This document shows positions 97-21,244 of a stretch of 64,000 nucleotides of DNA, one piece after another. Source of the DNA: Herbaspirillum rhizosphaerae (GTDB lineage: Bacteria; Pseudomonadota; Gammaproteobacteria; Burkholderiales; Burkholderiaceae_D); the NCBI RefSeq assembly GCF_001189965.1, contig NZ_LFLU01000022.1, positions 1 through 64,000 on the forward strand, in the 5' to 3' direction. Position 1 is the stretch's first letter. Every line of letters starts with the position of its first letter. The translations under genes and the position numbers were made by a program. The notes under the pieces are model-generated. The model made no database searches. It was given only the letters and a program-made list of their open reading frames with translations, and was not told the origin of the DNA.

Positions 97-798
97 TCAC
101 GCCACCGCCACCAACCGATCCAACCTCTCCCCATCCGCCAACAAACTCGCACTATCCGAATCATGCACAATCCGCCCGCGATCCAGCACAATCGCCCGCT
201 GCGTCAGCGACAACGCCATGCGTGCATGCTGCTCCACCACAATCACCGACATGCCCATATCCTTGACCAGACCACGGATCACGCGCAGCAACTCCTGCAC
301 GATGATCGGCGCCAGCCCTTCCATCGGCTCGTCCAGCAACAGGATGCGGGGGCTCACCATCAGCGCGCGTGCGATCGCCAGCATCTGCTGCTCGCCGCCT
401 GAGAGCTGATTGCCCATGTTGTTGCGACGCTCTTCCAGACGCGGAAAGATTTTGTAGATCTTCGGCAGGTCCCATTCGCCGCCGCGCGCCACGACCGTCA
501 GATGTTCCTCCACCGTCAGCGACGGGAACATGTAACGCTCCTGCGGCACCCAGCCGAGACCGGCGTGCGCACGCCTGTAGGTCGGCATGCGCACGATGTC
601 GCCGCCGCGCCAGCGGACGCTGCCGCCGTGCAGACGGGTCAGGCCCATCAGCGTCACCAGCAGGCTGGTCTTGCCGACGCCGTTGCGTCCCAACAGCGCC
701 AGGCTATCGCCTTCCTTCATGGAAAACGACACGTCTTCCAATACGATCGAATCGCCGTAGCCGGCAGTGACCTTGTCGAGTGCAAGCAGCTCACTCAT
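97..798 (-). CDS. livF: Branched-chain-type ABC transporter, ATP-binding protein LivF
   Basis: Second cytoplasmic ATPase of a LivFGHM-type importer, 233 aa, the usual LivF length. Walker A is GRNGVGKT at about residues 37-44, the ABC signature is LSGGEQQ around residue 133, and Walker B is ILLLDEP followed by EGLAP, the LivF form. Its start overlaps the end of livG by 8 bases, and it is the last gene of the leftward run pcaIJF-livHMGF. That position suggests uptake of an aromatic or dicarboxylic acid rather than an amino acid. Family assignment is firm; the substrate is inferred from neighbours. Confidence 0.93.
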   Translation of the reverse strand: MSELLALDKVTAGYGDSIVLEDVSFSMKEGDSLALLGRNGVGKTSLLVTLMGLTRLHGGSVRWRGGDIVRMPTYRRAHAGLGWVPQERYMFPSLTVEEHLTVVARGGEWDLPKIYKIFPRLEERRNNMGNQLSGGEQQMLAIARALMVSPRILLLDEPMEGLAPIIVQELLRVIRGLVKDMGMSVIVVEQHARMALSLTQRAIVLDRGRIVHDSDSASLLADGERLDRLVAVA

Positions 799-1555
799 GT
801 TCCGACTCCCCCAGATAAACTTCCTTGACGCGTTTGTCGGCAGCGATTTCCGCCGGCGTGCCTTCGGTCAGCACCTTGCCGCCGACCAGCACCGTGATGC
901 GTTCGGCAAAGCGGAACACCAGGCCCATGTCGTGTTCGATGAAGACGACGGTGACGTCGCGCGGCAGTTGCGCGATGACTTCGAACAACTCCTTGCTTTC
1001 CGCCGAGGGAATGCCGGCCGCCGGTTCGTCCAGTAGCAGCACCTTCGGTTTCGTCGCCAGCGCCAGCGCGATTTCCACTAGGCGCTGCTTGCCGTAGGCC
1101 AGGCTGCGCGTGATGCTGTTGGCTTCCCCATCGAGCTTGAGCGAGGCCAGCAAGGCCATGGCCTCGTCGATAACGTCGTTCTGCTGCGCCACCGTCTTGT
1201 ACCAGACGTATTGCAGGCCGCGCCGTTCGGAGATCGCCAGCACGATGGATTCCAGCACGGTCAGGCCGGCGAACAGCGTATTGATCTGGAAGGTGCGCGT
1301 CATGCCGCGCTTGACGCGTTCGTGCTGCGGCAGCGAAGTGATGTCGTCGTCGCCGAAGAACACCTTGCCGCTCGATGGCGCAAAGCCGCCCGTCAGCAGG
1401 TTGATGAAGGTGGTCTTGCCGGCGCCGTTGGGGCCGATCAACGCATGGCGCGCGCCGGGAACGAAGGTCAGCGAGACGTCGCTGTTGGCCTTGAAGGCGC
1501 CCCATTGTTTGGACAGGCCTTCGGTGCGGAGAGTGGTGTTTTGCATGGTGCTCAT
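791..1555 (-). CDS. livG: Branched-chain-type ABC transporter, ATP-binding protein LivG
   Basis: First ATPase of the importer, 254 aa. It has Walker A GPNGAGKTT at about residues 41-49, the LivG-specific insert around RTFQINTLF, a divergent signature (SLAYGKQRLVEIA instead of LSGGQ, common in LivG) and Walker [11 protein letters not shown]. The chosen start is the ATG preceded by AAGGAGAGC; it overlaps the livM stop by 4 bases (ATGA), indicating translational coupling. It should pair with LivF under the LivH/LivM permeases. Confidence 0.93.
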   Translation of the reverse strand: MSTMQNTTLRTEGLSKQWGAFKANSDVSLTFVPGARHALIGPNGAGKTTFINLLTGGFAPSSGKVFFGDDDITSLPQHERVKRGMTRTFQINTLFAGLTVLESIVLAISERRGLQYVWYKTVAQQNDVIDEAMALLASLKLDGEANSITRSLAYGKQRLVEIALALATKPKVLLLDEPAAGIPSAESKELFEVIAQLPRDVTVVFIEHDMGLVFRFAERITVLVGGKVLTEGTPAEIAADKRVKEVYLGESEHE

Positions 1556-2610
1556 GAACGCTCTCCTTTCGCGGCGGAAGAGTTGCGCAGCTTATTCCAG
1601 ATCAGAGTCAGACCGCCAAGGATGCCGCCGCGGGCGAACATCACGATGACGATCAGCAGCAGGCCGATCCAGAATTGCCAGTACGCCGGATTCAGACCGG
1701 ACAGATAATCTTGCGCCAGCATGAAGATCGCCGCGCCGACCAGGCCGCCGTAGAGGCGGCCGGTTCCGCCCAGCACCAGGATGATCAGCAGCTCTGCCGA
1801 GCGCGGAAAACCCAGCACATCGAGGCCGACGAACTGCGTGGTCTGCGCCAGCAAGGCGCCGGCCACGCCGGCGATCGCCGCGCTGACGGTGAAGATCACC
1901 GTCAGGCGCTGGTTGACGTTGACGCCAATGGCCGGCATGCGGCGGCCGCCTTCGCGGATGCCGACCAGGCTCAGGCCGAACGGCGAATTGACCAGACGGC
2001 GCAACACGGCAAACAGGATGAACAACACGACAAAGCTGTAGATATAGGCGACCTTGCCGTTAAGATCGAACTCGAACACGCCGAAGATCTTGTCCACCAT
2101 CATGCCCGACAAGCCGTCGACGCCGCCGGTGATGAAGGCGGCCTTGTTGGCAGCTTCGAACAGCATCAGGCCGATGCCCAGCGTCACCATCAGGCGCGCC
2201 AGGTCGTTGCCGCGCACCACCAGGAAACTGATGAGGTAGCCGAACGCCGCCGCGACGATCGCCGCCAGCAGCATGCCGCTGATCGGCTCGCCCCAGCCGT
2301 GCGCCGACAGCAGGCCGGCGGTGTAGGCGCCGAGGCCGAAGAAGGCGGCATGGCCGAGCGACACGATGCCGCCGTAGCCGAGGATCAGGTCGAGCGAGAT
2401 CGCGAACAGGCCGACGATCATGATCTGGCTGATCAGGATCAGATAATCGGGAAAGATGAAATAAGCCGCCACCGGCAGCAGCCAGAAAATGATTTCCAGC
2501 GGCTTCCAGCGGTCATTGGGAAGACGAAGCAAGGGAGACATGGCAGTGGTCTTTGCGCTAGTGGTGGGTGCAGCCGCGGCGGGCGCGGAAGTCGGTGTGC
2601 TCGCGCTCAT
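1552..2610 (-). CDS. livM: Branched-chain-type ABC transporter, permease LivM
   Basis: Inner-membrane permease of 352 aa with about nine or ten hydrophobic segments. The LivM motif appears as YGGIVSLGHAAFFGLGAY at about residues 79-96. The first 35 residues are an Ala/Thr/Pro-rich cytoplasmic tail without clear conservation, so a later start cannot be excluded, but the ATG used here overlaps the livH stop by 4 bases, which favours it. It forms the channel with LivH. The substrate is not readable from the sequence; the linkage to pcaIJF suggests aromatic acids or 3-oxoadipate-type compounds. Confidence 0.92.
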   Translation of the reverse strand: MSASTPTSAPAAAAPTTSAKTTAMSPLLRLPNDRWKPLEIIFWLLPVAAYFIFPDYLILISQIMIVGLFAISLDLILGYGGIVSLGHAAFFGLGAYTAGLLSAHGWGEPISGMLLAAIVAAAFGYLISFLVVRGNDLARLMVTLGIGLMLFEAANKAAFITGGVDGLSGMMVDKIFGVFEFDLNGKVAYIYSFVVLFILFAVLRRLVNSPFGLSLVGIREGGRRMPAIGVNVNQRLTVIFTVSAAIAGVAGALLAQTTQFVGLDVLGFPRSAELLIILVLGGTGRLYGGLVGAAIFMLAQDYLSGLNPAYWQFWIGLLLIVIVMFARGGILGGLTLIWNKLRNSSAAKGERS

Positions 2611-3473
2611 CCGCGCCTCCGCATCAGTCCGGCGGGGAACAGGATCAGCAGCAACACCATCAGGCCGTAGATGACGAAGGCGCCGATCTCCGGCACATAG
2701 TATTTTCCGGCCACGTCGAAAATGCCGAGGATCACGGCTGCCAGCAACGGCCCCTTGATCGTGCCGGCGCCGCCGACGGCCACCACCAGCAGGAAGTACA
2801 CCATGTACTTGATCGGGAACGTCGGATCGAGACCCAGCACGTCGATGCCGAGACCGCCGCCCAGGCCGGCCAGGCCGGAGCCGAGCGCGAAGGTCAGGCT
2901 GAACACGCGGCTGACGTTGATGCCCAGACCGGCGGCGGCGACCTGGTTGTCGACCGAGGCGCGGATCTGCGCGCCGAAACGCGTGCGCTCGATCAGCAGG
3001 CCCAATGCTGCGGTAACCAGCACCACCACGCCGATCAGGAATACCCGATACGCGCCGACGTCGAGACCGAGCAGAGAGATTTGTCCGCGCAGCCAGTCCG
3101 GCAAATGCACCGGCTGTTGCGTCGGGCCCCAGACGTAGGTTGCGCCGGCCACCGCCATGAAGGTCAGGCCGATGGAGAACAGCACCTGATCCAGGTGACT
3201 GGCTTTATACAGGCGGCGATACAGCGAACGCTCCAGCACCAGGCCGACCAGCGCCGACGCCAGGAAGGCCACCGGCAGCGACGCCAGGAAAGGCAGGCCG
3301 AGCTGATTGAGGATGGTGACGCAGACGTAGCCGCCCAGCATCGCGAACGCGCCGTGCGCCAGGTTGATGAAATTCATCATGCCCATCGTGACCGACAGGC
3401 CGACGCTGATCAGGAACAGCAGCGCGCCGTAGGCGATGCCGTCGAACATCACGCCGATGAAATTGCCGATCAT
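2607..3473 (-). CDS. livH: Branched-chain-type ABC transporter, permease LivH
   Basis: Inner-membrane permease, 288 aa, beginning MIGNFIGVMFDGIAYG, with the typical LivH segment MGMMNFINLAHGAFAMLGGY near residue 37. An in-frame ATG 21 bases upstream exists, but the chosen ATG has GGAG 7 bases ahead and matches the usual LivH N-terminus. First gene of the transporter part of the leftward operon, 178 bases after pcaF. No binding-protein gene is attached; the LivK-type protein at 9520-10695 is the likely partner. Confidence 0.92.
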   Translation of the reverse strand: MIGNFIGVMFDGIAYGALLFLISVGLSVTMGMMNFINLAHGAFAMLGGYVCVTILNQLGLPFLASLPVAFLASALVGLVLERSLYRRLYKASHLDQVLFSIGLTFMAVAGATYVWGPTQQPVHLPDWLRGQISLLGLDVGAYRVFLIGVVVLVTAALGLLIERTRFGAQIRASVDNQVAAAGLGINVSRVFSLTFALGSGLAGLGGGLGIDVLGLDPTFPIKYMVYFLLVVAVGGAGTIKGPLLAAVILGIFDVAGKYYVPEIGAFVIYGLMVLLLILFPAGLMRRRG

Positions 3474-3651
3474 GAGCAGTCTCCATGGCGGCAAGCTGCT
3501 GCGCTGCCGCGTCGGGTGCGGACAAGGGTGGGGTAAAGCATTGGTGTCTCCTCTTCAATCTCTTGTGCAAACGCTGCTCTATATTTTCATGGCTCTTGGT
3601 GGCCGGCAGCGTTGTCTTTACTTCTCTTTTCTTACATCGCGATCCAAATCT

Positions 3652-4854
3652 TCAGACGCGCTCAATGATAGTCGCAATCCCCTGGCCGACGCCGATGCAC
3701 ATGGTGCACAGCGCATAACGGCCGCCGGTGCGTTGCAGCTGGTACATCGCGGTGGTGATCAGGCGCGCGCCGCTCATGCCGAGCGGATGGCCGAGCGCAA
3801 TCGCGCCGCCGTTCGGGTTGACGCGCGGGTCGTCGTCGGCCACGCCGAGCTCGCGCAACACTGCCAGACCTTGCGAGGCGAATGCTTCGTTCAGTTCGAT
3901 CACGTCCATCTGTTCGATGGTCAGGCCGACTTGCTGCAACAGTTTTTTGGTGGCCGGCGCCGGGCCGATGCCCATGACGCGCGGCGCGACGCCGGCGGTC
4001 GCCATGCCGACGATGCGCGCGCGCGGCGTCAGGCCGTATTGCTTGACCGCTTCGGCGCTCGCCAGCAGCAGGGCGCAGGCGCCGTCGTTGACGCCGGAGG
4101 CATTGCCCGCCGTGACAGTGCCGTCGGCGCGCACCACGCCCTTGAGTTTTGCCAGCGCTTCCATGCTGGTGGCGCGCGGATGTTCGTCGTTGCTGACGGT
4201 AACCGGCTCGCCCTTCTTTTGCGGAATCACCACCGGCGTGATTTCCTGCGCCAGCGTGCCGTTGGCTTGCGCCGCGGCGGCCTTGGCCTGGCTGGCGACG
4301 GCGAATCTGTCCTGGTCGAGGCGGCTGATCTTGAAATCGTCCGCGACGTTTTCGCCGGTTTCCGGCATGGAATCGGTGCCGTAGAGCGCCTTCATCTGCG
4401 CGTTCGGGAAGCGCCAGCCGATGGTGGTGTCGTAGATGTTGGCGTTGCGCGAAAACGCGCTGTCGGCCTTGCCCATGACGAACGGCGCGCGCGTCATCGA
4501 TTCAACGCCGCCGGCCAGCATCAGTTGCGCTTCGCCCGACTTGATGGCGCGCGCCGCTGTGCCGACTGCATCCATGCCTGAGCCGCACAGGCGGTTCATG
4601 GTGGTGCCCGGCACCGATTGCGGCAAGCCGGCCAGTAGCGCCGACATGCGCGCGACGTTGCGGTTGTCTTCGCCGGCCTGGTTGGCGCAGCCGAAGATGA
4701 CGTCGTCGACGGCGTTCCAGTCGACTTGCGGATTGCGCGCGATCAGGGCGCGCAGCGGAATCGCGCCGAGATCGTCGGCGCGCACGTCTTTCAGTGCGCC
4801 GCCGTAGCGGCCGATGGGAGTGCGGATGGCGTCGCAGATAAAGGCTTCGGTCAT
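3652..4854 (-). CDS. pcaF: 3-oxoadipyl-CoA thiolase
   Basis: Last step of the beta-ketoadipate pathway: cleaves 3-oxoadipyl-CoA with CoA to succinyl-CoA and acetyl-CoA in the cytoplasm. It is 400 aa, exactly the usual PcaF/PaaJ length. The thiolase residues are visible: nucleophile Cys90 (NRLCGSGMDA), His356 (GGAIALGHPLGMSG) and Cys386 (CTMCIGVGQG). The N-terminus TEAFICDAIRTPIGRYGG is characteristic of PcaF. It follows pcaIJ by 36 bases in the same direction, giving the complete two-step conversion of 3-oxoadipate. Confidence 0.95.
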   Translation of the reverse strand: MTEAFICDAIRTPIGRYGGALKDVRADDLGAIPLRALIARNPQVDWNAVDDVIFGCANQAGEDNRNVARMSALLAGLPQSVPGTTMNRLCGSGMDAVGTAARAIKSGEAQLMLAGGVESMTRAPFVMGKADSAFSRNANIYDTTIGWRFPNAQMKALYGTDSMPETGENVADDFKISRLDQDRFAVASQAKAAAAQANGTLAQEITPVVIPQKKGEPVTVSNDEHPRATSMEALAKLKGVVRADGTVTAGNASGVNDGACALLLASAEAVKQYGLTPRARIVGMATAGVAPRVMGIGPAPATKKLLQQVGLTIEQMDVIELNEAFASQGLAVLRELGVADDDPRVNPNGGAIALGHPLGMSGARLITTAMYQLQRTGGRYALCTMCIGVGQGIATIIERV

Positions 4855-4890
4855 GGTGTTCTCTTCGTATGCTTCGTATCGGTTGCGGAA

Positions 4891-5532
4891 TTATGCCGGC
4901 GGCAACAGCGGCGCACCGGTAATCTTTTGCAGTTCTTCGAACGACATGCCATCGACGATCTCGCGCACTTGCAAGCCGTGCTCGGTCACGTCCAGCACGG
5001 CGACGTCGGTGTAGATGCGGTTGACGCAGCCGATACCGGTCAGCGGATAGTCGCAATGCGACACGATCTTGCTCTCGCCGGTCTTGGTCTGGTGTTCCAT
5101 CATGACGAACACCTGCTTGGCGCCGATGGCCAGGTCCATGGCGCCGCCGACGGCGGGAATCGCGTCCGGTGCGCCGGTGTGCCAGTTGGCCAGGTCGCCG
5201 GTGGCCGACACCTGGAAGGCGCCGAGCACGCAGATGTCGAGATGGCCGCCGCGCATCATGGCGAACGAGTCGCCGTGGTGGAAGTAGGCGCCGCCGGTCA
5301 GCAAGGTCACCGGCTGCTTGCCGGCGTTGATGAGGTCTTCGTCTTCTTCGCCGGGTGCGGGCGCCGGGCCCATGCCGAGCAAGCCGTTTTCGCTGTGCAG
5401 GAAAACTTCCTTGTCGGCCGGCAGGTAATTGGCGACCTTGGTCGGCAGGCCGATGCCGAGGTTGACGTAGGCGCCTTCGGGAATATCCTGCGCCACGCGT
5501 GCGGCGATCTGATCACGAGAGAAGCGATTCAT
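4891..5532 (-). CDS. pcaJ: 3-oxoadipate CoA-transferase, beta subunit
   Basis: Transfers CoA from succinyl-CoA to 3-oxoadipate together with PcaI. 213 aa, with the family nucleophile Glu48 in HSENGLLGMG. The frame is open farther upstream, but the ATG at 5532 is the natural start: it shares one base with the pcaI stop (TAATG) and has CAGGAG about 8 bases upstream. The acetoacetate CoA-transferase ScoB is a close relative; linkage to a PcaF-type thiolase supports the 3-oxoadipate assignment. Confidence 0.93.
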   Translation of the reverse strand: MNRFSRDQIAARVAQDIPEGAYVNLGIGLPTKVANYLPADKEVFLHSENGLLGMGPAPAPGEEDEDLINAGKQPVTLLTGGAYFHHGDSFAMMRGGHLDICVLGAFQVSATGDLANWHTGAPDAIPAVGGAMDLAIGAKQVFVMMEHQTKTGESKIVSHCDYPLTGIGCVNRIYTDVAVLDVTEHGLQVREIVDGMSFEELQKITGAPLLPPA

Positions 5533-6209
5533 TATTTGGTCTCCTGTGCGTTCTGCAGCACGACGCGTTGCACGAAGATGCCCGGCGTGACGATGGCTTC
5601 CGGATCCAGCTGGCCCAGCTCGACGACTTCGCTCACCTGGGCGATGGCGCACTTGGCGGCCATGGCCATGATGGGGCCGAAGTTGCGCGCGGTCTTGCGG
5701 TACACCAGGTTGCCCCAGCGGTCGCCGCGCAGTGCCTTGATCAATGCGAAGTCGGCGTGGATCGGCGACTCCAGCACATAGTGGCGGCCGTCGATGAGGC
5801 GGGTTTCCTTGCCGTCGGCCAGCATGGTGCCGTAGCCGGTGGGCGAGAAGAAACCGCCGATACCGGCGCCGGCGGCGCGGATGCGCTCGGCCAGGTTGCC
5901 TTGCGGCGTCAGTTCCAGTTCGATTTCGCCGGCTCGGTAGAGCGCGTCGAATACATGGGAGTCGGTCTGGCGCGGGAAAGAGCAGATGATCTTCTTCACG
6001 CGCTTGGCCTTGAGCAAAGCCGCCAGGCCGGTGTCGCCGTTGCCGGCGTTGTTGTTGACGATGGTGAGCTCGCGCGCGCCTTGCGCAATCAGCGCATCGA
6101 TCAGCGCCGCCGGCATGCCGGCATTGCCGAAGCCGCCGATCATGACAGTCGCGCCGTCGTGAATGTCGGCCACGGCTTGTTCCAGTGACTCAGTAATTTT
6201 GTCGATCAC
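5532..6209 (-). CDS. pcaI: 3-oxoadipate CoA-transferase, alpha subunit
   Basis: Alpha subunit of 225 aa. The glycine-rich CoA-transferase I motif GGFGNAGMPAALI is near the N-terminus and GAGIGGFFSPTGYGT in the middle. I chose a GTG start at 6209 (protein VIDKITESLEQAV), with AAAGAGA upstream, because homologues begin here. The open frame continues to 6461, but that extension is Arg/Gln-rich and unlike the family. First gene of the leftward operon, with a leader of about 220 bases below the operator at 6428-6461. Confidence 0.9.
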   Translation of the reverse strand: MIDKITESLEQAVADIHDGATVMIGGFGNAGMPAALIDALIAQGARELTIVNNNAGNGDTGLAALLKAKRVKKIICSFPRQTDSHVFDALYRAGEIELELTPQGNLAERIRAAGAGIGGFFSPTGYGTMLADGKETRLIDGRHYVLESPIHADFALIKALRGDRWGNLVYRKTARNFGPIMAMAAKCAIAQVSEVVELGQLDPEAIVTPGIFVQRVVLQNAQETK

Positions 6210-6636
6210 GTTGCGTCTCTTTCGTGAATCCGTTCGTTGAACAGCAAATGCATGAAAATGGTCCTGCGATGCGCCGGCGCGATCCTGCCATGCTGCTGCA
6301 GCCGGGCTTTCAGGAATGGCTTGTCTCCGCCTGGTTTTTCTATGCTCCTGCGCTTTCCAACCGCTGTTTTGGCCCTTGTGCGAGTCAAAATGCGTGCGCG
6401 CCTGAATTCTTTTATGTACAATCATTTGTGCGATAAACGAACTAATGTTTGTTTTTCGCACACATTAGTGTAGCGATACCTGGCTTCCTGCGTCAAGAAC
6501 AAACAGGCAGGCCTGTGCGATGTCCGCACAACATATTAGAATCGCGGACAATCCCGTGGCCGCCGCTTATGCAGATCATCCGGCTTATTGCTCGTCGTTG
6601 CCAATCCTTGCCCACTGTTGCCCATCGTCATTTTGA
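6210..6636. promoter_or_regulatory. Divergent pcaI / pcaR-like regulator intergenic region
   Basis: This 427-bp AT-richer gap must carry the promoters of the leftward pca-liv operon and the rightward IclR-family regulator. It contains the long inverted repeat at 6428-6461. I see no convincing separate coding frame in it. Confidence 0.7.
6428..6461. promoter_or_regulatory. Inverted-repeat operator, probably for the IclR/PcaR-type regulator
   Basis: Half-sites GTGCGATAAAC (6428-6438) and GTTTTTCGCAC (6451-6461) are inverted around a 12-bp spacer. The symmetry extends to 15 bp per arm with only two mismatches and a 4-bp centre. A site with the same half-site pattern and the same spacer lies at 9217-9250. 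IclR regulators of the PcaU/PobR class are known to bind long inverted repeats in the gap to their target operon, so autoregulation plus pcaIJF control is a reasonable inference. Confidence 0.75.
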
Positions 6637-7536
6637 ATGCCTATGTCCAAGACACCTGCTCCAGCAAAAACCCGCAAGCCCGCAGCCAAATCCGGCAAGG
6701 CAAAGGGTGACGCCGTCGTCGCTCCCGCCGCCGATCAGGCCGAAGAAAAAGAACTCACCATCGCCGAGGAAATCGACGCCCTCACCGATCCCAGTTTCAT
6801 GACCTCGCTGGCGCGCGGCCTGGCGGTGGTGCGCGCCTTCAGCGACACGCGCCGCACGCTGACCATTGCGCAGATCAGCCAGAAGACCGGCATCCCGCGC
6901 GCGGCGGTGCGCCGCTGCCTGCATACACTGAAACAGCTGGGCTATGCCGATTCCGAGGTGAACAATTTTTCGCTGCGCCCGAAGATCCTGACGTTGGGTT
7001 ATTCCTATCTGTCGTCGACGCCGCTGACCGTGTCGGCCCAGCCTTGCCTGAACAACATCACGCGCACGCTCAATGAGTCTTGCTCGCTGGCGGTGCTGGA
7101 CGACAATGAGGTGTTGTATGTCTCGCGTTCAGCGACGGCGCGCGTGATGTCGGTGGCGCTCAATACCGGCAGCCGTCTGCCGGCGTATTGCACTTCGCTG
7201 GGACGCGTGATGCTGGCGCACATGCCGGAAGAGGCCCTGAAGGCCTACTTCGACAAAGTCAAACTCCGCGCCTTCACCGACAAGACCGTGGTCTCGCAAA
7301 AGCGCCTGCGCGAAATCCTCGCCGAAGTGCGCGAATCCGGTTACGCCGTCATCGACGAAGAACTGGAAGTCGGCCTGCGTTCGATCGCGGTCCCGGTGCG
7401 CGGCGCGTCCGGCAATGTGCTGGCGGCGCTCAACGTCGGCGCCCAGGCCGCACGTGTGAGCCGGCGCCAGATGGAAGACGAGTTCCTGCCGGTGCTGCTG
7501 CGCGGCTCGCAGGAATTGTCCGTGCTGCTGCCATAA
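6637..7536 (+). CDS. pcaR: IclR-family regulator, PcaR/PcaU/PobR subfamily
   Basis: 299 aa. A 45-residue Lys/Ala-rich tail precedes an N-terminal winged helix-turn-helix (SLARGLAVVRAFSD to LHTLKQLGYAD) and an IclR effector domain. Hallmarks of the PcaR/PcaU/PobR subgroup are IPRAAVRRCLHTL in the recognition helix region, GYSYLSSTPL after the wing, and YVSRSATARVMSVALNTGSRLPAYCTSLGR split across the effector domain. The subgroup senses 3-oxoadipate, protocatechuate or 4-hydroxybenzoate. It is divergent from pcaIJF, and the inverted repeat at 6428-6461 lies between them. A second possible start is two codons downstream; neither has a clear ribosome site. Confidence 0.88.
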   Translation: MPMSKTPAPAKTRKPAAKSGKAKGDAVVAPAADQAEEKELTIAEEIDALTDPSFMTSLARGLAVVRAFSDTRRTLTIAQISQKTGIPRAAVRRCLHTLKQLGYADSEVNNFSLRPKILTLGYSYLSSTPLTVSAQPCLNNITRTLNESCSLAVLDDNEVLYVSRSATARVMSVALNTGSRLPAYCTSLGRVMLAHMPEEALKAYFDKVKLRAFTDKTVVSQKRLREILAEVRESGYAVIDEELEVGLRSIAVPVRGASGNVLAALNVGAQAARVSRRQMEDEFLPVLLRGSQELSVLLP

Positions 7537-7618
7537 CTGTAAGCAGACACAAAAAATCCAGCGGACTTTGCAGTGCGCCGGATTGAAGACAGCAGCCTGA
7601 GCCGCTGTCGATACTACG

Positions 7619-7643
7619 GGCGCGCCCTGCTCAGTGGCGCGCC
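7619..7643. terminator. Stem-loop between convergent regulator and porin genes
   Basis: Two copies of the self-complementary GGCGCGCC (7619-7626 and 7636-7643) are separated by 9 bases and can form an 8-bp GC stem. It sits between the ends of the regulator and the porin. No strong T-run follows on either strand, so terminator function is only possible. Confidence 0.35.
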
Positions 7644-7683
7644 ATCCTCCTCAAGATTTCCTTGAAACGGCTTCAGACCTGCA

Positions 7684-8799
7684 TCAGAAGGTGTGACGGA
7701 TACCCGACATCACGCCCAACTGATTCTTGCCGGCGCCCACGGTGCCGCCTGCATCGATCGCCACGGCAGAAGTGCCGCCGTTTTTCTGATAGCCCAGCGA
7801 GGTGTACAGCGCAGTGCGCTTGGACAGGTTGTAGGTCAGGCGGCCCACCATCAGGGTCACGTCGTTGGGGCTGCTCTTGACGTTCAGCTTGGCGACCTGT
7901 GCGTCCAGCACCAGTGCCGTCGACAGCGGCACGCTCGCGCCCAGGTAATACAGGTCAGAGTTGGTGTTGACCGCACCGGCGGCACGGGTGCGACGATCGA
8001 CCACGCCGGCGCCGATCTTGGTGTCGCCGATCATGACGAAACCGTTCAACGTGACGCGCTGGTCGGTGTTGTCGCTGCTGGTCAGGCCGCCGGCTGCGCC
8101 GGTGTTGCCGTACAGGATGTCGTAGGACGAGGTCACGCCGAACGACTTGTTGTCGTAGCCGACCAGGGCAGTGACCTGACGGCAGGCTTTGGAATTGCCG
8201 GCGACTTCACCCGCGCAGCCGGTTGCGGCAGGACCGCCTGTGGCCGAGGTGTCGCGGCCGAAGCTGTATGTCGCGCCGACGGTGAAGTTGGAGAAATTGC
8301 CCAGGTAGCCGATCGAATTATCGCTGCGTGCGTTCGGCAGATAGCCGTCGATGCTACCGATCGCAAAAATGTTCGGCCCCATGACGTCGGTCTTCAGCGT
8401 CGCGATGTAGGTCATGTTGACCTGGCGGCCCAGCATGACCTGCCCCCAGCTATTGCTCTTCAGACCGACCAGCGATTGACGGCCGAACAGGCGATTGCCC
8501 TGCCCCATCGAACCGGTGTCGGGTGCGAAGCCGGTTTCCAGCACGAACATCGCTTCCAGCCCGCCGCCCAGGTCTTCCGACCCCTTGAAGCCCAGGCGCG
8601 ACGGGAACGAACCGGTCAGCGACGGCATCTTGAATACCGAATTGCCGGCGGCGTTGGCGTTGGTGGTGTAGACCACGCCGGTGTCGACGATACCGTAGAC
8701 GGTGACCGAGCTCTGCGCCATGGCGTTGCCTGCGCACAGCGCACCCATTGCACCCATTGCACCCATCAGCGCGATTGCGCTGCAAACTGATTTCTTCAT
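7684..8799 (-). CDS. Gram-negative porin (trimeric, OmpC-like betaproteobacterial type)
   Basis: Outer-membrane diffusion channel, 371 aa. It has a signal peptide ending GNAMAQ, then the porin start SSVTVYGIVDTGVVY; internal motifs GSEDLGGGLEAMFVLETGF and [13 protein letters not shown]; and a C-terminal strand ending in HTF, the aromatic end needed for BAM insertion. The start at 8799 is preceded by AGGAGGAGG; the frame is open upstream but that part is not porin-like. It faces the LivK-type gene at 9520 across a long gap holding a PcaR-like operator, so it may admit the same aromatic substrate. It resembles the porin at 28846-29946. Confidence 0.92.
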   Translation of the reverse strand: MKKSVCSAIALMGAMGAMGALCAGNAMAQSSVTVYGIVDTGVVYTTNANAAGNSVFKMPSLTGSFPSRLGFKGSEDLGGGLEAMFVLETGFAPDTGSMGQGNRLFGRQSLVGLKSNSWGQVMLGRQVNMTYIATLKTDVMGPNIFAIGSIDGYLPNARSDNSIGYLGNFSNFTVGATYSFGRDTSATGGPAATGCAGEVAGNSKACRQVTALVGYDNKSFGVTSSYDILYGNTGAAGGLTSSDNTDQRVTLNGFVMIGDTKIGAGVVDRRTRAAGAVNTNSDLYYLGASVPLSTALVLDAQVAKLNVKSSPNDVTLMVGRLTYNLSKRTALYTSLGYQKNGGTSAVAIDAGGTVGAGKNQLGVMSGIRHTF

Positions 8800-8823
8800 T
8801 GTGCCTCCTCCTGAAACGTAAAG

Positions 8824-8849
8824 ATTTTTAAATTCGATTTTTAAATTCG
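8824..8849. repeat. Tandem 13-bp direct repeat in the porin leader
   Basis: The sequence ATTTTTAAATTCG occurs twice back to back (8824-8836, 8837-8849), 25 bases upstream of the porin ATG. It lies in the presumed 5' untranslated region and is much AT-richer than its surroundings. Confidence 0.7.
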
Positions 8850-9216
8850 TCTTGTTGATCTTGTTGATGCGGTTGCTGACTTTGCTGCTGATTTTGTTGC
8901 CGACTTTCTTGATGCTGCCGGATGACTCGGCATGTCCGCAGATTGCAGACATGCGTCGTACTCCCTCCGCGGTGTCGATACGTGGATTCTTTGTCGCCGA
9001 ACGCGGGCTTCCGCGGGTTTCGCAGGGGGCGTTCAGCCTGCCTCCCGGCTGATCGCCGGAGGCCTTCATGTGTTACGTCGATGTTGCTTGAATACTGCCT
9101 GCGTGCAGCCGGTAGTCGCCGGCGAAATTCTGCAATGCTGCAAATGCCTGCCTGATCGTCCCCTGCCTGGAGTGGCCCGGAGAGTTTCGTCTCGATTATT
9201 TCGATTTTTATTTAAT

Positions 9217-9250
9217 GTTCGATAAACGCACAATATGTTGTTTACCGAAC
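9217..9250. promoter_or_regulatory. Second copy of the PcaR-type inverted-repeat operator
   Basis: Half-sites GTTCGATAAAC (9217-9227) and GTTTACCGAAC (9240-9250) are inverted around 12 bp, the same layout as at 6428-6461. A possible -10 (TACTAT) lies shortly downstream toward the binding-protein gene. This ties the solitary binding protein, and perhaps the porin, to the pca regulator. Confidence 0.7.
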
Positions 9251-9519
9251 GCTTGTTGCGATACTATTGTTCTCGCTGAAGCTTGTCAAGAATGCGCAAA
9301 GCAGAAAATTCCCGGCAGCGTCGTCTGCGAGCAACAGCTAAAATCCGGCGACAAGAAAAATTTTCCAACGGACATCGCCATCTGCAAGGTACCGGGCAGT
9401 GCGGCTGCATCGCCCGTCCGGCAAGGAATACGGCGCTGCAAGGGATGCACGGAAAGCACGGCTCAGGATGAACAACCGCGTATGCACTACGCCACGACAA
9501 CGTATCGAAGGAGACAAAC

Positions 9520-10695
9520 ATGAGATTTAAAAAATCGGCATTGCTGGCAATGCTGGCAGGGATGAATATTTTTGCAGCGGCGCAGGCGCATGCCGCGGAC
9601 ACCATCAAGATCGGCCTGATCGCGGCCTTCTCCGGCCCCTTCGCCGACTACGGCAAGCAGATGGAAGGCGGCATCAAGGCCTACATGGCGCAGAACGGCG
9701 ACACCGTGGCCGGCAAGAAAATCCAGATCATCGTCAAGGACACCACCGGCCCGTCGCCTGAAATCGCCAAACGCCTGGCGCAGGAACTGGTGGTGCGCGA
9801 CAAGGTCGACTTCCTCGCCGGTTTCGGCCTGACGCCGGAAGCGCTGGCGGTGGCGCCGATCGCCGAGCAGGCCAAGAAGCCGATGATCATCATGAACGCC
9901 GCGACCTCGATCATCACCACCAAGTCGAACTACATCGCGCGCTTCTCGATGACGCTGCCGCAGGTGTCCGGCCCGATGGCGACCTGGGCGCTGAAGAACA
10001 ACATCAAGAAAGTCGTGACGCTGGTGGCCGACTACGGTCCGGGCATCGATGCCGAGACCGCGTTCAAGACCAACCTGCTGGGCGGCGGCGGACAAGTGAT
10101 CGAATCGATCCGCGTGCCGTTGCGCAATCCTGAGTTCGCGCCCTACATCCAGCGCATCAAGGACGCCAAGCCGGAAGCCGTGTTCATCTTCGTACCGGCC
10201 GGCGAGCAAGGCATCGCCTTCATGAAGGGCTATCGCGAGCGCGGCCTGGCCGAAGCCGGCATCAAGGTCATTGCTACCGGCGACCTGACCGACGACCACG
10301 TGCTGCCGGCGATGGGCGACGCGACGCTGGGCGTGATCACGACGTTCCACTATTCGGCGGCGCACAACTCGCCCGAGAACAAGGCCTTCCTGAAGAGCTA
10401 TGCCGCGGTGAATCCGAACGGCGGCCGGCCGAATTTCATGGCCGTGGCTGCCTATGACGGCATGGCGGCGATCTATGAAGTGTCGAAGAAACTCAACGGC
10501 AACATCGACGGCGACAAGGCCATGGCGATCCTGAAGAATATCAAGCTCAACAGCCCGCGCGGCCCGATCTCGATTGACCCGGCGACACGCGACATCGTGC
10601 AGACGGTGTATGTACGCAAGGTGGAAAAAGTCGGCAACGAAGTCTATAACGTCGAGTTCGATAAATTCCTCAACGTGAAGGACACCGGCAAGTAA
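9520..10695 (+). CDS. LivK-type periplasmic binding protein of an ABC importer
   Basis: Periplasmic solute receptor, 391 aa. It has a signal peptide with probable cleavage after AHA (residue 25) and a mature start DTIKIGLIAAFSGPFADYGKQ, typical of type I branched-chain-type receptors (Peripla_BP_6). The ATG is preceded by AAGGAG. No permease or ATPase follows it; a strong terminator comes at 10725-10758. The orphan LivHMGF set at 97-3494 has no receptor, and both units share the same operator type, so they probably form one transporter for an aromatic acid or 3-oxoadipate-related compound. The ligand is not readable from the sequence. Confidence 0.9.
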   Translation: MRFKKSALLAMLAGMNIFAAAQAHAADTIKIGLIAAFSGPFADYGKQMEGGIKAYMAQNGDTVAGKKIQIIVKDTTGPSPEIAKRLAQELVVRDKVDFLAGFGLTPEALAVAPIAEQAKKPMIIMNAATSIITTKSNYIARFSMTLPQVSGPMATWALKNNIKKVVTLVADYGPGIDAETAFKTNLLGGGGQVIESIRVPLRNPEFAPYIQRIKDAKPEAVFIFVPAGEQGIAFMKGYRERGLAEAGIKVIATGDLTDDHVLPAMGDATLGVITTFHYSAAHNSPENKAFLKSYAAVNPNGGRPNFMAVAAYDGMAAIYEVSKKLNGNIDGDKAMAILKNIKLNSPRGPISIDPATRDIVQTVYVRKVEKVGNEVYNVEFDKFLNVKDTGK

Positions 10696-10724
10696 TCTGC
10701 CGTGAAAATCTGCGCAGGATGATG

Positions 10725-10758
10725 ACGCCGGTGATGCAATGCACACCGGCGTTTTTTT
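10725..10758 (+). terminator. Rho-independent terminator of the binding-protein gene
   Basis: A perfect 9-bp stem ACGCCGGTG / CACCGGCGT with a 10-base loop is followed by seven T residues. Confidence 0.9.
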
Positions 10759-10934
10759 CGTTCCAGACGCAGGAAGATCGATTCATGCGGAGCAACGGCA
10801 GACACCGGTCGCGCAGTTGTTTCGATGCAGCGCAGCATGAGACCATCGCTGCAATCCAGACGGCAAGCGGCATTGCGGCGTTCGGTAGCCGCCCTGTTTT
10901 ACGTTTTCAATGCACTTGCCGCGCATGTTATCGC

Positions 10935-10962
10935 TTGCATTTGCTGTTTACATACTTATACT
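10935..10962 (+). promoter_or_regulatory. Candidate sigma-70 promoter of the phenylpropanoid operon
   Basis: TTGCAT (10935-10940) and TATACT (10957-10962) are separated by 16 bp in an AT-rich patch, about 110 bases before the first gene of the operon. Confidence 0.55.
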
Positions 10963-10969
10963 AAATAAC

Positions 10970-10986
10970 AGTTATAACTTATAAGT
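10970..10986. promoter_or_regulatory. Two overlapping 10-bp palindromes, candidate MarR operator
   Basis: AGTTATAACT (10970-10979) and ACTTATAAGT (10977-10986) are each perfectly self-complementary and share three bases. They lie at the expected transcription start of the operon that ends with a MarR gene. MarR proteins bind short palindromes, so repression of this promoter is a plausible inference. Confidence 0.55.
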
Positions 10987-11074
10987 AATTGCCGGCATCC
11001 CCGTCAGGCAATCTGAGACAAACGATCTGCACCAAGCAACACCTCAGTGCGCAAGCACCAACAACAGGCTGGCC

Positions 11075-11860
11075 ATGACGAATCATTCTGACGATCTTCT
11101 CGATATCCATTACGACGGCGCAATTGCCGTCGTCGCCATCAACCGCATCGCCAAGCGCAATGCGCTGAGCGACCCGCTGGTGCGCACCATCCAGCGCTGC
11201 TTCGAATCCTTTCCGCCGGAAATCAAGGTCGCCATCATTCGCGGCAACGGCGATCATTTCTGCGCCGGTCTCGATCTCTCCGAACTGCGTGAGCGCGACA
11301 CCAGCGAAAGCATGTACCACTCGCGCATGTGGCACGCCGCCTTCGAGCGCGTGCAATTCGGCGGCGTACCGGTGATCGCTGTGCTGCACGGCGCGGTCAT
11401 CGGCGGCGGCCTGGAACTGGCCTCCGCCGCCCACATCCGCGTGGCCGAAGACAGCGCCTTCTACGGCCTGCCGGAAGGGCAGCGCGGCTTGTTCGTCGGC
11501 GGCGGCGGATCGGTGCGCATCTCGCGCCTGGTCGGCGTCGCCTGCATGAGCGACATGATGCTGACCGGCCGCGTGCTGTCGTCGCAGGAAGGCCATCAGG
11601 CCGGCATTTCGCAATATCTCACCGCCGCCGGCAAGGGCATGGAGAAAGCCATGGAGTTGGCGGGACGCATCGCCAAGAATGCGCCGATGACCAACTACGG
11701 CGTGACGCATGTGTTGCCGCGCATCGCCGACCAGTCGATCCAGGACGGGCTGGTGACGGAATCGCTCATGGCCGCCGTGGCCGGCAGCGATCCCGAAACC
11801 AAGGGCAGGCTCGCCGCTTTTCTCGATCTGAAGATGAACAAGGTCGAGCGAGGCACCTAG
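11075..11860 (+). CDS. Enoyl-CoA hydratase (crotonase family), phenylpropenoyl-CoA hydration
   Basis: 261 aa crotonase. The oxyanion-hole segment is HFCAGLDLSE (residues 61-70), and both hydratase glutamates are kept: Glu114 in IGGGLELA and Glu134 in YGLPEGQRG. The hydratase/lyase (HCHL/Ech) that splits feruloyl-CoA to vanillin lacks the first of these, so this enzyme should only add water across the side-chain double bond, as in beta-oxidation. It opens the rightward operon, just ahead of a feruloyl-CoA-synthase-like ligase, thiolase and dehydrogenase. The exact cinnamoyl-CoA substrate is inferred. Confidence 0.85.
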   Translation: MTNHSDDLLDIHYDGAIAVVAINRIAKRNALSDPLVRTIQRCFESFPPEIKVAIIRGNGDHFCAGLDLSELRERDTSESMYHSRMWHAAFERVQFGGVPVIAVLHGAVIGGGLELASAAHIRVAEDSAFYGLPEGQRGLFVGGGGSVRISRLVGVACMSDMMLTGRVLSSQEGHQAGISQYLTAAGKGMEKAMELAGRIAKNAPMTNYGVTHVLPRIADQSIQDGLVTESLMAAVAGSDPETKGRLAAFLDLKMNKVERGT

Positions 11861-11930
11861 CAACAGCTAATCTATATCGACAATTTGCGGCCCCATACAA
11901 AGCAGTACCGATAACTATTAAGAGACATGT

Positions 11931-13811
11931 ATGAGCACAACCCCACGCTATCGCAGCGTACGATTCGGCATCGGCGGCGTTGACGTCGCCGAAGTTGCTG
12001 ACGGACAGAGCATTGTCAGGACCAGGCAGCCCTTGCAGGACTACCCGGCGCGCCTGAGCGACAAGCTGAAATACTGGGCGGCGCAGACGCCCGACACCAG
12101 CTTCATGGCCAGGCGCGACGCCGACGGCGTCTGGCAGCACATCACTTACGCACAGGCATTGCAGACCGCCCGCCACATCGGCCAGGGCCTGCTCAATCGC
12201 GGCCTGTCGGCGGAACGCCCGTTGCTGATCCTGTCGGAGAACGACCTCGAACACGCCATGCTGGCGCTGGCCTGCCACTATGTCGGCGTGCCGTATGCGC
12301 CGGTGTCGTCGGCGTACTCTTTGCTGTCGAAGGATTACGCCAAGCTGCGCCATGCCGTCAATCTGCTGACGCCGGGCATGATCTTCGCCGCGCATGGCGA
12401 GAAGTTCGTCGCCGCCGTCAATGCCGTGGCGACCAGCGACATCGAATTCGTCGCCACCGAAGCTCCCCCCTCCGCGCGCGCCACCACGCTCTACAGCGAA
12501 CTGGCCGCGACGCCGGTCACCGATGCCGTCGAGCGCGCGCATGACGCCACCACGCCGGACACCATCGCCAAGTTCCTGTTCACCTCCGGTTCGACCAAGT
12601 TGCCGAAGGCGGTGATCAACACCCAGCGCATGATCTGCAGCAACCTGCAGATGATCGTGCAAACCTTTCCCTTCCTCGGCGAAGAGCCGCCGGTGCTGAT
12701 CGACTGGCTGCCCTGGAACCATACCTTCGGCAGCAATCACAATGTCGGCATCGTGCTCTACAACGGCGGCACTATGTATATCGACGAGGGCAAGCCGACG
12801 CCGCAGGGCCTCGCCGTCACGCTGCAAAACCTGCGCGAGATCGCGCCGACGATTTACTTCAACGTACCGATCGGCTGGGAAGGCATCGCCCACGCCCTGG
12901 AAAAAGACGCCGCCCTGCGCGACAAGTTTTACAGCCGCCTGAAGATGCAGTTCTACGCCGGCGCCGCGCTGGCGCAACCGGTATGGGACAAGCTGCACGC
13001 CACCGCTGAAGCCGCCTGCGGCGAACGCATCGTGATGTCCTGCGGCCTCGGCATGACCGAGACCGCGCCGTCGGCCTTGTTCGTGGTGGAAGAACAGGTG
13101 CGCTCCGGCCAGATCGGCATCCCCACGCCCGGCATGGAAATCAAGCTGGTACCCAACGGCGACAAGATGGAAATCCGCTATCGCGGTCCCAACGTCACGC
13201 CGGGTTATTGGCGCGCACCGGAGCAGACGAAAGAAGCCTTCGATGAAGAAGGTTTCTTCTGCTCGGGCGACGCCGTCAAATGGCTGGATCCGACCAATCA
13301 CGATCTCGGCTTCATGTTCGACGGCCGCGTGGCCGAAGACTTCAAGCTCTATACCGGAACCTGGGTCAGCGTCGGCCCGCTGCGCGCGGTCATCGCCCAT
13401 GAAGGCGCGCCCTACTTGCAGGACGCCGTCATCACCGGCCAGGACCGCAACGAAGTCGGCATGCTGATCGTGCCCAACCTGGAACGCTGCCGCCAGCTGG
13501 CAGGACTGCCTGCAAGCGCTTCGCGCGATGAGATCGTCGCCGCGCAACCGGTGCGCGACTTTTTCAGCAATGTGCTGCAGCGCCTGCAACAACACGCCAC
13601 CGGCAGCGCCTCGCGCGTGGCGCGCGCATTGGTGCTGGTCGATCCGCCGTCTTTCGATAAAGGCGAAATCACCGACAAGGGTTCTATCAACCAGCGCGCT
13701 GTGCTGACGCACCGCGCCGATCTGGTTGAGGCGCTCTACGCCGACATCAATCCGGCCATCCTCAAACCGCGTCCGCTGGCGGGCAGGAACGCCACAGCGA
13801 CAGGAGCATAA
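11931..13811 (+). CDS. fcs: Feruloyl-CoA synthase-like acyl-CoA ligase
   Basis: 626 aa ANL-superfamily ligase, the Fcs length. The adenylate loop is FLFTSGSTKLPKAV (about residues 215-228), followed by INTQRMICSN, then DWLPWNHTFGSNHNVG and CGLGMTETAPS, all typical of feruloyl-CoA synthases. It activates a hydroxycinnamate (ferulate, p-coumarate or caffeate) with ATP and CoA. The expected C-terminal hinge is present (FDGRVAEDFKLYTG), and the catalytic Lys region near the end reads DKGEITDKGSINQ. ATG with AAGAGA upstream. Next gene begins 5 bases later. Which cinnamate is preferred cannot be told. Confidence 0.9.
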   Translation: MSTTPRYRSVRFGIGGVDVAEVADGQSIVRTRQPLQDYPARLSDKLKYWAAQTPDTSFMARRDADGVWQHITYAQALQTARHIGQGLLNRGLSAERPLLILSENDLEHAMLALACHYVGVPYAPVSSAYSLLSKDYAKLRHAVNLLTPGMIFAAHGEKFVAAVNAVATSDIEFVATEAPPSARATTLYSELAATPVTDAVERAHDATTPDTIAKFLFTSGSTKLPKAVINTQRMICSNLQMIVQTFPFLGEEPPVLIDWLPWNHTFGSNHNVGIVLYNGGTMYIDEGKPTPQGLAVTLQNLREIAPTIYFNVPIGWEGIAHALEKDAALRDKFYSRLKMQFYAGAALAQPVWDKLHATAEAACGERIVMSCGLGMTETAPSALFVVEEQVRSGQIGIPTPGMEIKLVPNGDKMEIRYRGPNVTPGYWRAPEQTKEAFDEEGFFCSGDAVKWLDPTNHDLGFMFDGRVAEDFKLYTGTWVSVGPLRAVIAHEGAPYLQDAVITGQDRNEVGMLIVPNLERCRQLAGLPASASRDEIVAAQPVRDFFSNVLQRLQQHATGSASRVARALVLVDPPSFDKGEITDKGSINQRAVLTHRADLVEALYADINPAILKPRPLAGRNATATGA

Positions 13812-13816
13812 TTCAC

Positions 13817-15073
13817 ATGGCAAAGAAATCTTTCTACTCCAACTTCGACGACGTCTGGATGCTGGGCGGCGTGCGCACGCCGATGGTCGATTATTGCAGC
13901 ACCTTCTCGCAACTGTCGCCGACCGACATGGGTATCAAGGTTGCGCGTGAAGTCCTCAAACGCACCGGCGTGCCGGCGGCCGACATCGGCTCCGTCATCG
14001 CCGGCAACATGGCGCCCGGCGATTGCTTCCAATACATGCTGCCACGCCATATCGGCTTGTACGCCGGCGTGTCGATAGACGTGCCGGCCATCATGGTGCA
14101 ACGTATCTGCGGCACCGGCTTCGAACTGATACGCCAGGCCGGCGACCAGATCGAACGCGGCTATACCGACACGACGCTGGTGGTCGGCTCAGAATCGATG
14201 ACCCGCAATCCGATTGCGGCCTTCTCGCATCGCGGCGGCTTCCGACTCGGCGCGCCGGTGGAATTCCAGGATTACATGTGGGAAGCGTTGATCGACCCGG
14301 CGCCCGGCATCACCATGCCGCAGACGGCAGAAAATCTTGCGAAGAAATACGGCATCACGCGCCGCGAAGTGGACGAATACGCCGCGCTCTCGTTTGAACG
14401 CGCCGTGCGTGCGCAGCAGGAAGGTTTTCACGTCGACGAGATCGTGCCGGTGATTAATGAAACCTTCAAGCTCGACGGCTACAACGACCGGCACATCAAG
14501 CTGCAGGGCAAGGTCACGGAGGCGGCCACCGATACCCATCCGCGTCCGTCGCCGGTGGAAGTATTAGGCAAGCTGCGCACGCTCTATCCCGACGGCGTGC
14601 AGACCGGCGGCAACAGCTCGGCGCTGGTGGACGCGGCAGCCGCAACCGTCATCGCCTCCGGCAGCTACCTGCGCGACCACCGCTGCACACCGCTGGCGCG
14701 CGTGGTCGCCGCCGCCGTGGTCGGCGTGCCGCCGGAAATCATGGGCATCGGTCCGGCGCCGGCGATCCGCCTGCTGCTGGAACGCAACAGCCTGACGCTG
14801 GACGACATCGGCTGTTTCGAAATCAATGAAGCGCAAGGCGCGCAAACCATCGCCGTCGAACGCGAACTCGGGCTCGACCGCAGCAGGCTCAACGTCAACG
14901 GCGGCGCGATTGCGCTGGGCCATCCGCTGGCCGCGACCGGCGTGCGGTTGTCGATCACCGCCGCGCGCGAAATGCGCAAGCGCGGCGCACGCTACAGCAT
15001 CGCCTCGGCCTGCATCGGCGGCGGACAAGGCATCGCACTGCTGCTGGAAAACCCGGCCGCTTCCAATCAATAA
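13817..15073 (+). CDS. Thiolase (acetyl-CoA acetyltransferase family)
   Basis: 418 aa thiolase with nucleophile Cys98 (QRICGTGFE), His369 (GGAIALGHPLAATG) and Cys399 (ASACIGGGQG), so catalytically complete. In this operon it is expected to cleave the 3-keto-3-arylpropionyl-CoA made by the SDR dehydrogenase into aroyl-CoA (for example 4-hydroxybenzoyl-CoA or vanilloyl-CoA) plus acetyl-CoA. It is clearly different from PcaF at 3652-4854. GGAG lies 10 bases before the ATG. Confidence 0.88.
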   Translation: MAKKSFYSNFDDVWMLGGVRTPMVDYCSTFSQLSPTDMGIKVAREVLKRTGVPAADIGSVIAGNMAPGDCFQYMLPRHIGLYAGVSIDVPAIMVQRICGTGFELIRQAGDQIERGYTDTTLVVGSESMTRNPIAAFSHRGGFRLGAPVEFQDYMWEALIDPAPGITMPQTAENLAKKYGITRREVDEYAALSFERAVRAQQEGFHVDEIVPVINETFKLDGYNDRHIKLQGKVTEAATDTHPRPSPVEVLGKLRTLYPDGVQTGGNSSALVDAAAATVIASGSYLRDHRCTPLARVVAAAVVGVPPEIMGIGPAPAIRLLLERNSLTLDDIGCFEINEAQGAQTIAVERELGLDRSRLNVNGGAIALGHPLAATGVRLSITAAREMRKRGARYSIASACIGGGQGIALLLENPAASNQ

Positions 15074-15091
15074 TCTGCGAAAGAAGTCGAT

Positions 15092-15856: not shown

Positions 15857-15873
15857 CACATTCAGGAGTCAGC

Positions 15874-16293: not shown

Positions 16294-16354
16294 GAACCCG
16301 CAACAGCAACAGGCAAACGAATCGATCCAGGTAACTATAAAAAAGGAGACGGAG

Positions 16355-17506: not shown

Positions 17507-17520
17507 GTTAAGCGATGCAG

Positions 17521-17550
17521 CGCCGGAAGACGTACTGGCGTCTTCCGGCG
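17521..17550 (+). terminator. Strong intra-operon hairpin after the binding-protein gene
   Basis: A perfect 12-bp stem CGCCGGAAGACG / CGTCTTCCGGCG with a 6-base loop is followed by TTCTCTTC, a weak U-rich tail. It lies between the receptor and first permease genes and could act as partial terminator or 3' stabiliser. Confidence 0.65.
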
Positions 17551-18688: not shown

Positions 18689-18695
18689 GCCAGCG

Positions 18696-20507: not shown

Positions 20508-21244
<737 letters not shown>

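Follow-up and report, generated by a model that had tools for sequence, protein, structure and literature searches.

A palindrome of the form GTNCG-N5-CGNAC has been described for the regulators PcaR, PcaU and PobR, and an extra direct half-site, giving three-box sites, is known for PcaU, PobR and HmgR (PMC8222616). Here we describe two sites of this kind in a 64,000-nucleotide stretch of the Herbaspirillum rhizosphaerae genome (hereafter the window; positions 1-64000 of contig C15, from a source genome of 5,266,109 bases in 55 contigs), one between pcaI and pcaR and the other between a porin gene and the gene for a substrate-binding receptor. The sites resemble the PcaR/PcaU/PobR operators of Acinetobacter baylyi and Pseudomonas putida in their palindromic core and their proximity to pcaIJ (PMC8222616, PMC12455658), and those of PcaU and PobR in their third, direct half-site (PMC8222616). 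Unlike in P. putida and A. baylyi, the same operator also stands between the porin and receptor genes. We consider it likely that PcaR, acting through both operators, controls one predicted hydroxybenzoate importer whose core and receptor/porin are encoded apart. Each component, whether regulator, operator or transporter, belongs to a known kind; what varies is the PcaR-linked separation of receptor from core, together with a porin and probably several receptors.

PcaK is a carrier of the major facilitator superfamily, and the rhizobial protocatechuate importer PcaMNVWX is a Liv-type ATP-binding cassette (ABC) set tied to the protocatechuate pathway, its genes encoded together under the LysR regulator PcaQ. 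CouPSTU, the p-coumarate importer of Rhodopseudomonas palustris, is an aromatic-acid ABC importer, as is predicted for the window system. The receptor RPA1789 (4jb0), which we take to be CouP, is 18% identical to the window receptor and nearer to a second window receptor at 16355. The transporter operon of RPA1789 lies nearby on the other strand (PMC3223731). In P. putida 4-hydroxybenzoate is taken up by PcaK (PMC3572157). Hydroxybenzoate-binding receptors are known from R. palustris (4ey3/4eyg; RPA0985, 4evs; RPB_2270, 4f06), whereas the ligand of the window receptor is predicted; unlike them, the window receptor has its gene at a distance from those of its likely permease and downstream of a PcaR-type operator.

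The predicted importer core occupies the left end of the window, where two permeases and two ATPases lie at 97-3494 on the minus strand: a livF-type ATPase (97..798, with the contig start 96 bp to its left), a livG-type ATPase (791..1555), a livM-type permease (1552..2610) and a livH-type permease (2607..3494). All four were assigned from family-level matches, supplemented for livG and livM by neighbour genes in relatives and for livH, which does not reach the equivalog cut-off, by its co-occurrence with the receptor. On the same strand lie pcaF (3652..4854, 3-oxoadipyl-CoA thiolase), pcaJ (4891..5532, CoA-transferase subunit B) and pcaI (5532..6209, subunit A), which score above the cut-offs of TIGR02430, TIGR02428 and TIGR02429, respectively. 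A receptor gene within the permease operon, usual though not strictly required for Liv-type (HAAT) importers, is absent in the window. The receptor gene (9520..10695, plus strand; PF13458, model pLDDT 90.9, the predicted local distance difference test score) in turn lacks permeases of its own, and the window gene order thereby bears out what the original prediction had said of both units. Divergent from the receptor across the second operator is a Porin_4 gene (7684..8799, minus strand; PF13609, 161.6 bits). This porin had been called remote; its between-gene position beside the receptor holds, but it is convergent with pcaR, the two gene ends being 147 bp apart.

The product of pcaR (6637..7536, plus strand), an IclR-type regulator, scores 324 bits against TIGR02431 (PcaR/PcaU/PobR), for which the curated cut-off is 284.75, and matches both PF09339 (the helix-turn-helix, HTH_IclR) and PF01614 (the effector domain, IclR_C). 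Its best-scoring solved structure is 8eju, a regulator of the Pca regulon, with which IPRAAVRRCLHTL in the helix-turn-helix region is identical in the alignment; 8eju is P. putida PcaR (PMC12455658). The shared regulator of both sites is likely to be this PcaR, with DNA binding and a response to 3-oxoadipate as predicted properties.

Operator 1 (6428..6461, plus strand) reads GTGCG-ATAAA-CGAAC-N14-CGCAC, and operator 2 (9217..9250, plus strand) reads GTTCG-ATAAA-CGCAC-N14-CGAAC. The inverted repeats announced for these positions, with 11-base half-sites and 12 bp between them, are found there. Their architecture had been called identical, which is too strong, since only 24 of the 34 bases agree; the 12-bp spacers have a common length and differing sequences, and begin with the remainder of the second box. 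Both sites are better described as three boxes, GTKCG-N5-CGMAC-N14-CGMAC, in which an inverted GTNCG-N5-CGNAC pair is followed by one more half-site as a direct repeat. The opening 15 bases of operator 2, GTTCGATAAACGCAC, agree at 14 of 15 positions with the PcaR operator published for P. putida, GTTCGATAATCGCAC (PMC12455658), and those of operator 1 differ from it at three positions as written and at two on the other strand. By sequence, both gaps carry an IclR operator of the PcaU/PobR type. The original prediction did not list a further two-box site upstream of pcaR, GTGCGATGTCCGCAC (6515..6529, plus strand), whose form GTKCG-N5-CGCAC is kept in all eight Herbaspirillum rows of alignment A1 and which may serve autoregulation. 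In Burkholderia xenovorans, GTTCGCTAAACGAAT upstream of pcaR has been given as a putative LysR-type site (PMC3572157); it resembles a GTNCG-N5-CGNAC box of the PcaR/PcaU kind.

At up to three mismatches, the 34-bp pattern finds only these two sites in the window (four strand matches), against a mean of 0.01 in 100 dinucleotide shuffles. A related pattern covering both sites likewise finds only these two at the same tolerance in the whole genome, where the reversed pattern, used as a control, gave no matches. As the patterns were built from the two sites themselves, these counts show rarity and not independence. Rarity alone is insufficient, and conservation in relatives is the independent test of whether the sites matter.

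A protein search with the receptor gave 80 named loci (1.51 Mb in all), which we split, by record title and list order, into 58 Oxalobacteraceae-like and 22 Cupriavidus/Ralstonia-like loci. The operator was scored within 420 bp upstream of the receptor, leaving one of the 22 unscored because its upstream stretch is shorter than this. A full three-box match precedes the receptor in 44 of the 58 Oxalobacteraceae-like loci, and one further locus has a site with one mismatch; none of 11,600 shuffles of the corresponding upstream stretches contained a match. Across all 80 loci there are 78 full matches, with just four outside the two expected places. These four (L158:660, L166:670, L168:708 and L213:645) lie approximately 1 kb past livF in Duganella/Rugamonas-type genomes, the L158 site being at the start of an open frame (645-1223) for a small predicted secreted protein. 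The pcaI-pcaR gaps of the named loci carry a full match in 28 of 40 cases and a site with one mismatch in a further 10, and operator 1 is kept in a 12-sequence alignment, as is operator 2 in alignment A2. Herbaspirillum, Duganella, Collimonas, Glaciimonas and Massilia all provide examples of the order livFGMH-pcaFJI, operator, pcaR, porin, operator, receptor, and the operator is also kept in several cases where the receptor sits away from pcaIJF-pcaR in the fetched stretch (L063, L066, L161, L177).

We also compared 97 genomes of the family, counting receptor ortholog and livH each at an identity of at least 79%; this set overlaps the named loci (e.g. G059, L145), and related species are not independent, so that p-values for co-occurrence serve as rough indications. 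A full match is present in the fetched 1.5 kb upstream of 14 of 21 receptor orthologs, with receptor-upstream sites carrying one mismatch in G046 and two in G058. At up to two mismatches the 34-bp pattern is found in 15 of the 97 genomes, against 4 for the reversed control; two of the 15 matches (G032:C10 and G078:C38) seem to be fortuitous, since the surrounding stretches (L085, L086) yielded neither a pca nor a receptor gene.

Gene content and gene order give good support to a pairing between the window receptor and the livHMGF set, which has no receptor of its own. The receptor ortholog occurs in 21 of the 97 genomes and livH in 23, with livH present in all 21 receptor genomes and without a receptor only in G054 and G017. 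By genus (n=44), all 12 receptor genera have the permease, which is found in 13. A near-full PcaR match (at least 71%) is present in 28 genomes, a count that leaves out G088 with its partial match and neither receptor nor livH: 20 of these have both receptor and livH, one has livH alone and seven have neither, although in one of the seven (G027) both genes have more distant counterparts (57% and 63%). This split indicates that receptor and livH come and go together while pcaR stays.

Furthermore, receptor and core are joined in several same-strand runs. These take the form pcaIJF-B-CD-livHMGF-receptor behind a one-mismatch operator in L078, ring-cleavage genes-receptor-livHMGF in L081 and L082 (receptor 68-69% identical), and porin-livHMGF-receptor in L120 (receptor 72%, porin 52%). 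Nine genomes (L039-L047) carry a more distant receptor (57-69%) whose gene immediately precedes livH on the same strand, and in Cupriavidus-type loci, where pcaIJF/pcaR were not found in the fetched stretch, receptor and livFGMH face each other at distances from adjacent to approximately 6 kb (L205, L209). In the receptor tree the window clade includes livF-adjacent members, and beside it stand receptors encoded directly upstream of livH. The original proposal of a split transporter under one regulator is thus supported by the co-occurrence, the joined runs and an operator found across the Oxalobacteraceae, with binding and transport themselves predicted.

The receptor is of the Peripla_BP_6 kind and close to aromatic-acid receptors. 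Its nearest solved relatives by identity, 4ey3/4eyg (57%), hold p-hydroxybenzoate and vanillate, and it is 45% identical to RPA0985, solved with 4-hydroxybenzoate. Given the ligands of the nearest solved receptors, a hydroxybenzoate is the likelier predicted cargo over 3-oxoadipate. At an E-value of 1e-60 or better, this subfamily has four receptors in the genome. The one on contig C45 comes with a separate livHMGF set beginning approximately 5 kb downstream, and no adjoining permease was found for the window receptor or for those at C26:7666 and C26:2184, contig C26 being only 14.7 kb long. The C26:7666 gene is convergent with pcaHGBDC, and C26:2184 lies beside an oxygenase-like gene that is below family cut-offs and VanA-like by eye. 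The window receptor was accordingly rejected as the sole candidate for LivHMGF, given these two further permease-less receptors. In Massilia-type relatives (L128, L185) a receptor of the C26:7666 type lies roughly 100-200 bp behind livF on the same strand. To judge from gene order, then, LivHMGF probably serves two or more receptors.

A consensus scan places a predicted pcaI promoter, TTGACG-N18-TACACT, at 6467..6496 on the minus strand, with operator 1 starting 5 bp past its -10 box, and a predicted porin promoter, TTGACA-N17-TAGTAT, at 9261..9289 on the minus strand, with operator 2 starting 10 bp past its -10 box. GTCAA and AGTNTA of the pcaI pair, and TTGTCAA and GATANTAT of the porin pair (alignment A2), are present in every one of the 12 sequences aligned. 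The same scan found no promoter for the receptor on the plus strand of the porin-receptor gap. In a published test of PcaR, a box overlapping or downstream of the -10 led to repression and a box upstream to activation (PMC12455658). With the operators 5-10 bp downstream of conserved -10-like boxes, we predict that PcaR represses pcaI and the porin gene. From transposon fitness data in a Ralstonia strain, PcaR has been proposed to repress its own operon, and a mutant deleted for pcaR could grow slightly on glutarate (PMC12543098). Naringenin causes a joint 3-7 fold rise of pcaJIF and catCD in H. seropedicae (PMC4440368). The genome of a congener (G026) has a full three-box site (L060:9523-9556) upstream of a 3-oxoadipate enol-lactonase gene, beside the end of a CatM/BenM-like regulator gene, and together with this co-induction the site would fit one regulator for both gene sets.

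We propose that PcaR would bind both operators and repress until its inducer, predicted to be 3-oxoadipate, builds up, and that its release would allow enzymes, pump, receptor and pore to be made together. Receptor and porin, encoded approximately 3 kb away, would complete an importer whose permease-ATPase core sits behind pcaIJF, and the receptor would hand protocatechuate, 4-hydroxybenzoate or vanillate to this LivHMGF core. Other orphan receptors, the one beside pcaHGBDC for example, probably feed the same core. A wider version, which we put forward tentatively and hold to be slightly less probable than its opposite, is that the Oxalobacteraceae pcaIJF operon is an import hub, in which one LivHMGF, several hydroxybenzoate receptors encoded separately and a dedicated porin are gated by PcaR, with 3-oxoadipate, in which ring cleavage ends, opening every layer of uptake simultaneously, outer pore through to final enzyme.

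Several observations weigh against a PcaR-controlled split importer. No site at up to one mismatch precedes the receptor in 13 of the 58 Oxalobacteraceae-like loci. The receptor lies directly behind pcaR in three of these (L167, L181, L182) and beside livF in three more (L170, L178, L187); for the other seven (L152, L153, L155, L183, L190, L204, L214), livH and pcaR are both missing from the stretch fetched, L152, L153 and L214 being short contigs and L152 ending in livF. Five genomes with receptor and pcaR (G002, G023, G031, G060, G081) have no site at up to two mismatches in the fetched flank; in G023 the receptor stands behind livF on one strand. A full match precedes the receptor in none of the 21 scorable Cupriavidus/Ralstonia-like loci, which implies that the receptor-core pairing outlives PcaR-type regulation. 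Five Ralstonia-type loci have a one-mismatch site, and the four of these that show the regulator have a PcaR of 42-43% identity and both sites altered. The promoter-like pairs barely exceed those of shuffled sequence (2 versus a mean of 0.4 in the pcaI region, 1 versus 0.7 in the porin region). In the naringenin RNA-seq study, the remarks on upregulated ABC transporters name mainly anion transporters and leave LivHMGF unmentioned, and an ompC raised 2.4 fold cannot be tied to the window porin (PMC4440368). Finally, a second PcaR/PcaU-family regulator, encoded beside pcaHGBDC on contig C26 (L068 13116-14042), could cross-bind the window sites.

This second regulator passes the same TIGR02431 cut-off (309.4 versus 284.75), and its upstream site GTGCGAGAATCGCAC has half-sites in common with the window sites; a perfect two-box palindrome, TTTGTGCGAGAATCGCACAAA, lies at L068 13205-13219, just upstream of the start of its homology. 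The sites might then belong to it, or to both regulators, and the genome G021 (86% complete), which has the site and in which no match to the window-type PcaR was found, would suit such an arrangement. However, no three-box match at up to one mismatch lies beside the second regulator, and the sites track the window-type PcaR: Cupriavidus-type receptor loci without PcaR in the stretch have no site, and the altered sites of the Ralstonia-type loci, at both places, accompany the divergent PcaR noted above. We regard this explanation as improbable. That the repeats are alike by chance or low complexity, as two short sites in AT-rich gaps might be, has a negligible probability and was rejected, given the 0.01 expected in shuffled windows, the lack of any other genome copy and the conservation across genera.

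Receptor and porin might also be under PcaR with the receptor delivering to a different permease; the complete LivH2-MG2-F2 set, for example, lies in the same window (17636-21244) and on the receptor's strand. A one-mismatch third site directly before the LivH2-containing cluster in nine Herbaspirillum loci (L140:11338, L145:11338 and L151:11338 among them) would be in keeping with this. However, the LivH2 set has its own receptor (16355-17506), nearest to the group of 3tx6/4f8j, 4jb0 and 3ukj/4eyo/4eyq, whose structures include some with bound p-coumarate or caffeate. In the Duganella, Collimonas and Glaciimonas loci, moreover, receptor and LivHMGF remain together, and the fetched 10 kb shows no LivH2 cluster. 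Co-occurrence and the same-strand runs favour LivHMGF over LivH2 as the partner, and we give delivery to another permease little credence. A somewhat better, though still unlikely, alternative concerns the cargo, which might be 3-oxoadipate or a related dicarboxylate and not an aromatic acid. The core sits behind pcaIJF, whose enzymes handle 3-oxoadipate, and ABC sets with phenotypes on pimelate and adipate in Cupriavidus basilensis and on pimelate in Ralstonia have been reported (PMC12543098). Against a dicarboxylate stand the receptor's identities to the p-hydroxybenzoate/vanillate receptor and RPA0985, and the position of the receptor-livHMGF runs of L081 and L082 directly behind protocatechuate ring-cleavage genes. 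We therefore retain a PcaR-controlled hydroxybenzoate importer with separately encoded parts as the likely explanation.

Elsewhere in the window, a cluster of aromatic-acid type at 11075-23662 encodes an enoyl-CoA hydratase, CoA ligase, thiolase, dehydrogenase, thioesterase and acyl-CoA dehydrogenase, along with its own Liv permeases/ATPases and a receptor nearest to the 3tx6/4f8j group. The third site that precedes this enoyl-CoA hydratase/CoA-ligase cluster in other Herbaspirillum loci has a degenerate relative here (10880..10913, plus strand; alignment A3), in which box 3 is lost and box 2 changed. A conserved AT-rich repeat beside it, at 10953-10987, may be the site of another regulator. 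A second porin resembling the first lies at 28846-30039, in a separate gene group that also includes an AraC-like regulator and a molybdenum-type oxidoreductase-like gene, all named by eye from their translations. In stretch L118 of the same genome (contig C45), positions 4549-16001 combine another receptor with an oxygenase-like gene, livHMGF and, truncated at the stretch end, a porin match (69%), placing this porin type again beside a Liv-type set.

Among the matches listed, the literature titles and abstract openings contained none on the PcaR-receptor-porin-livHMGF arrangement. As IclR regulogs in general include Liv-type and AtoDA genes (PMC8222616), the supplementary tables of that study may already list some of these sites. 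Literature matches listed for the solved receptor entries gave unrelated titles only, and those for orphan receptors with shared permeases gave only unrelated work.

Genes of a kind usually annotated as branched-chain amino acid transport acquire a specific and testable prediction, hydroxybenzoate uptake, in Herbaspirillum, Duganella, Massilia, Collimonas and their relatives, bacteria that typically live in association with soil or plants. The locus provides a concrete case in which a conserved ABC receptor is separate from its permease and under the same likely switch, and the relatives in which the two are joined mean that the split can be dated and tested. The porin is a likely member of this aromatic-acid uptake chain, and the predicted role of the importer as a whole would be the uptake of plant-derived hydroxybenzoates.

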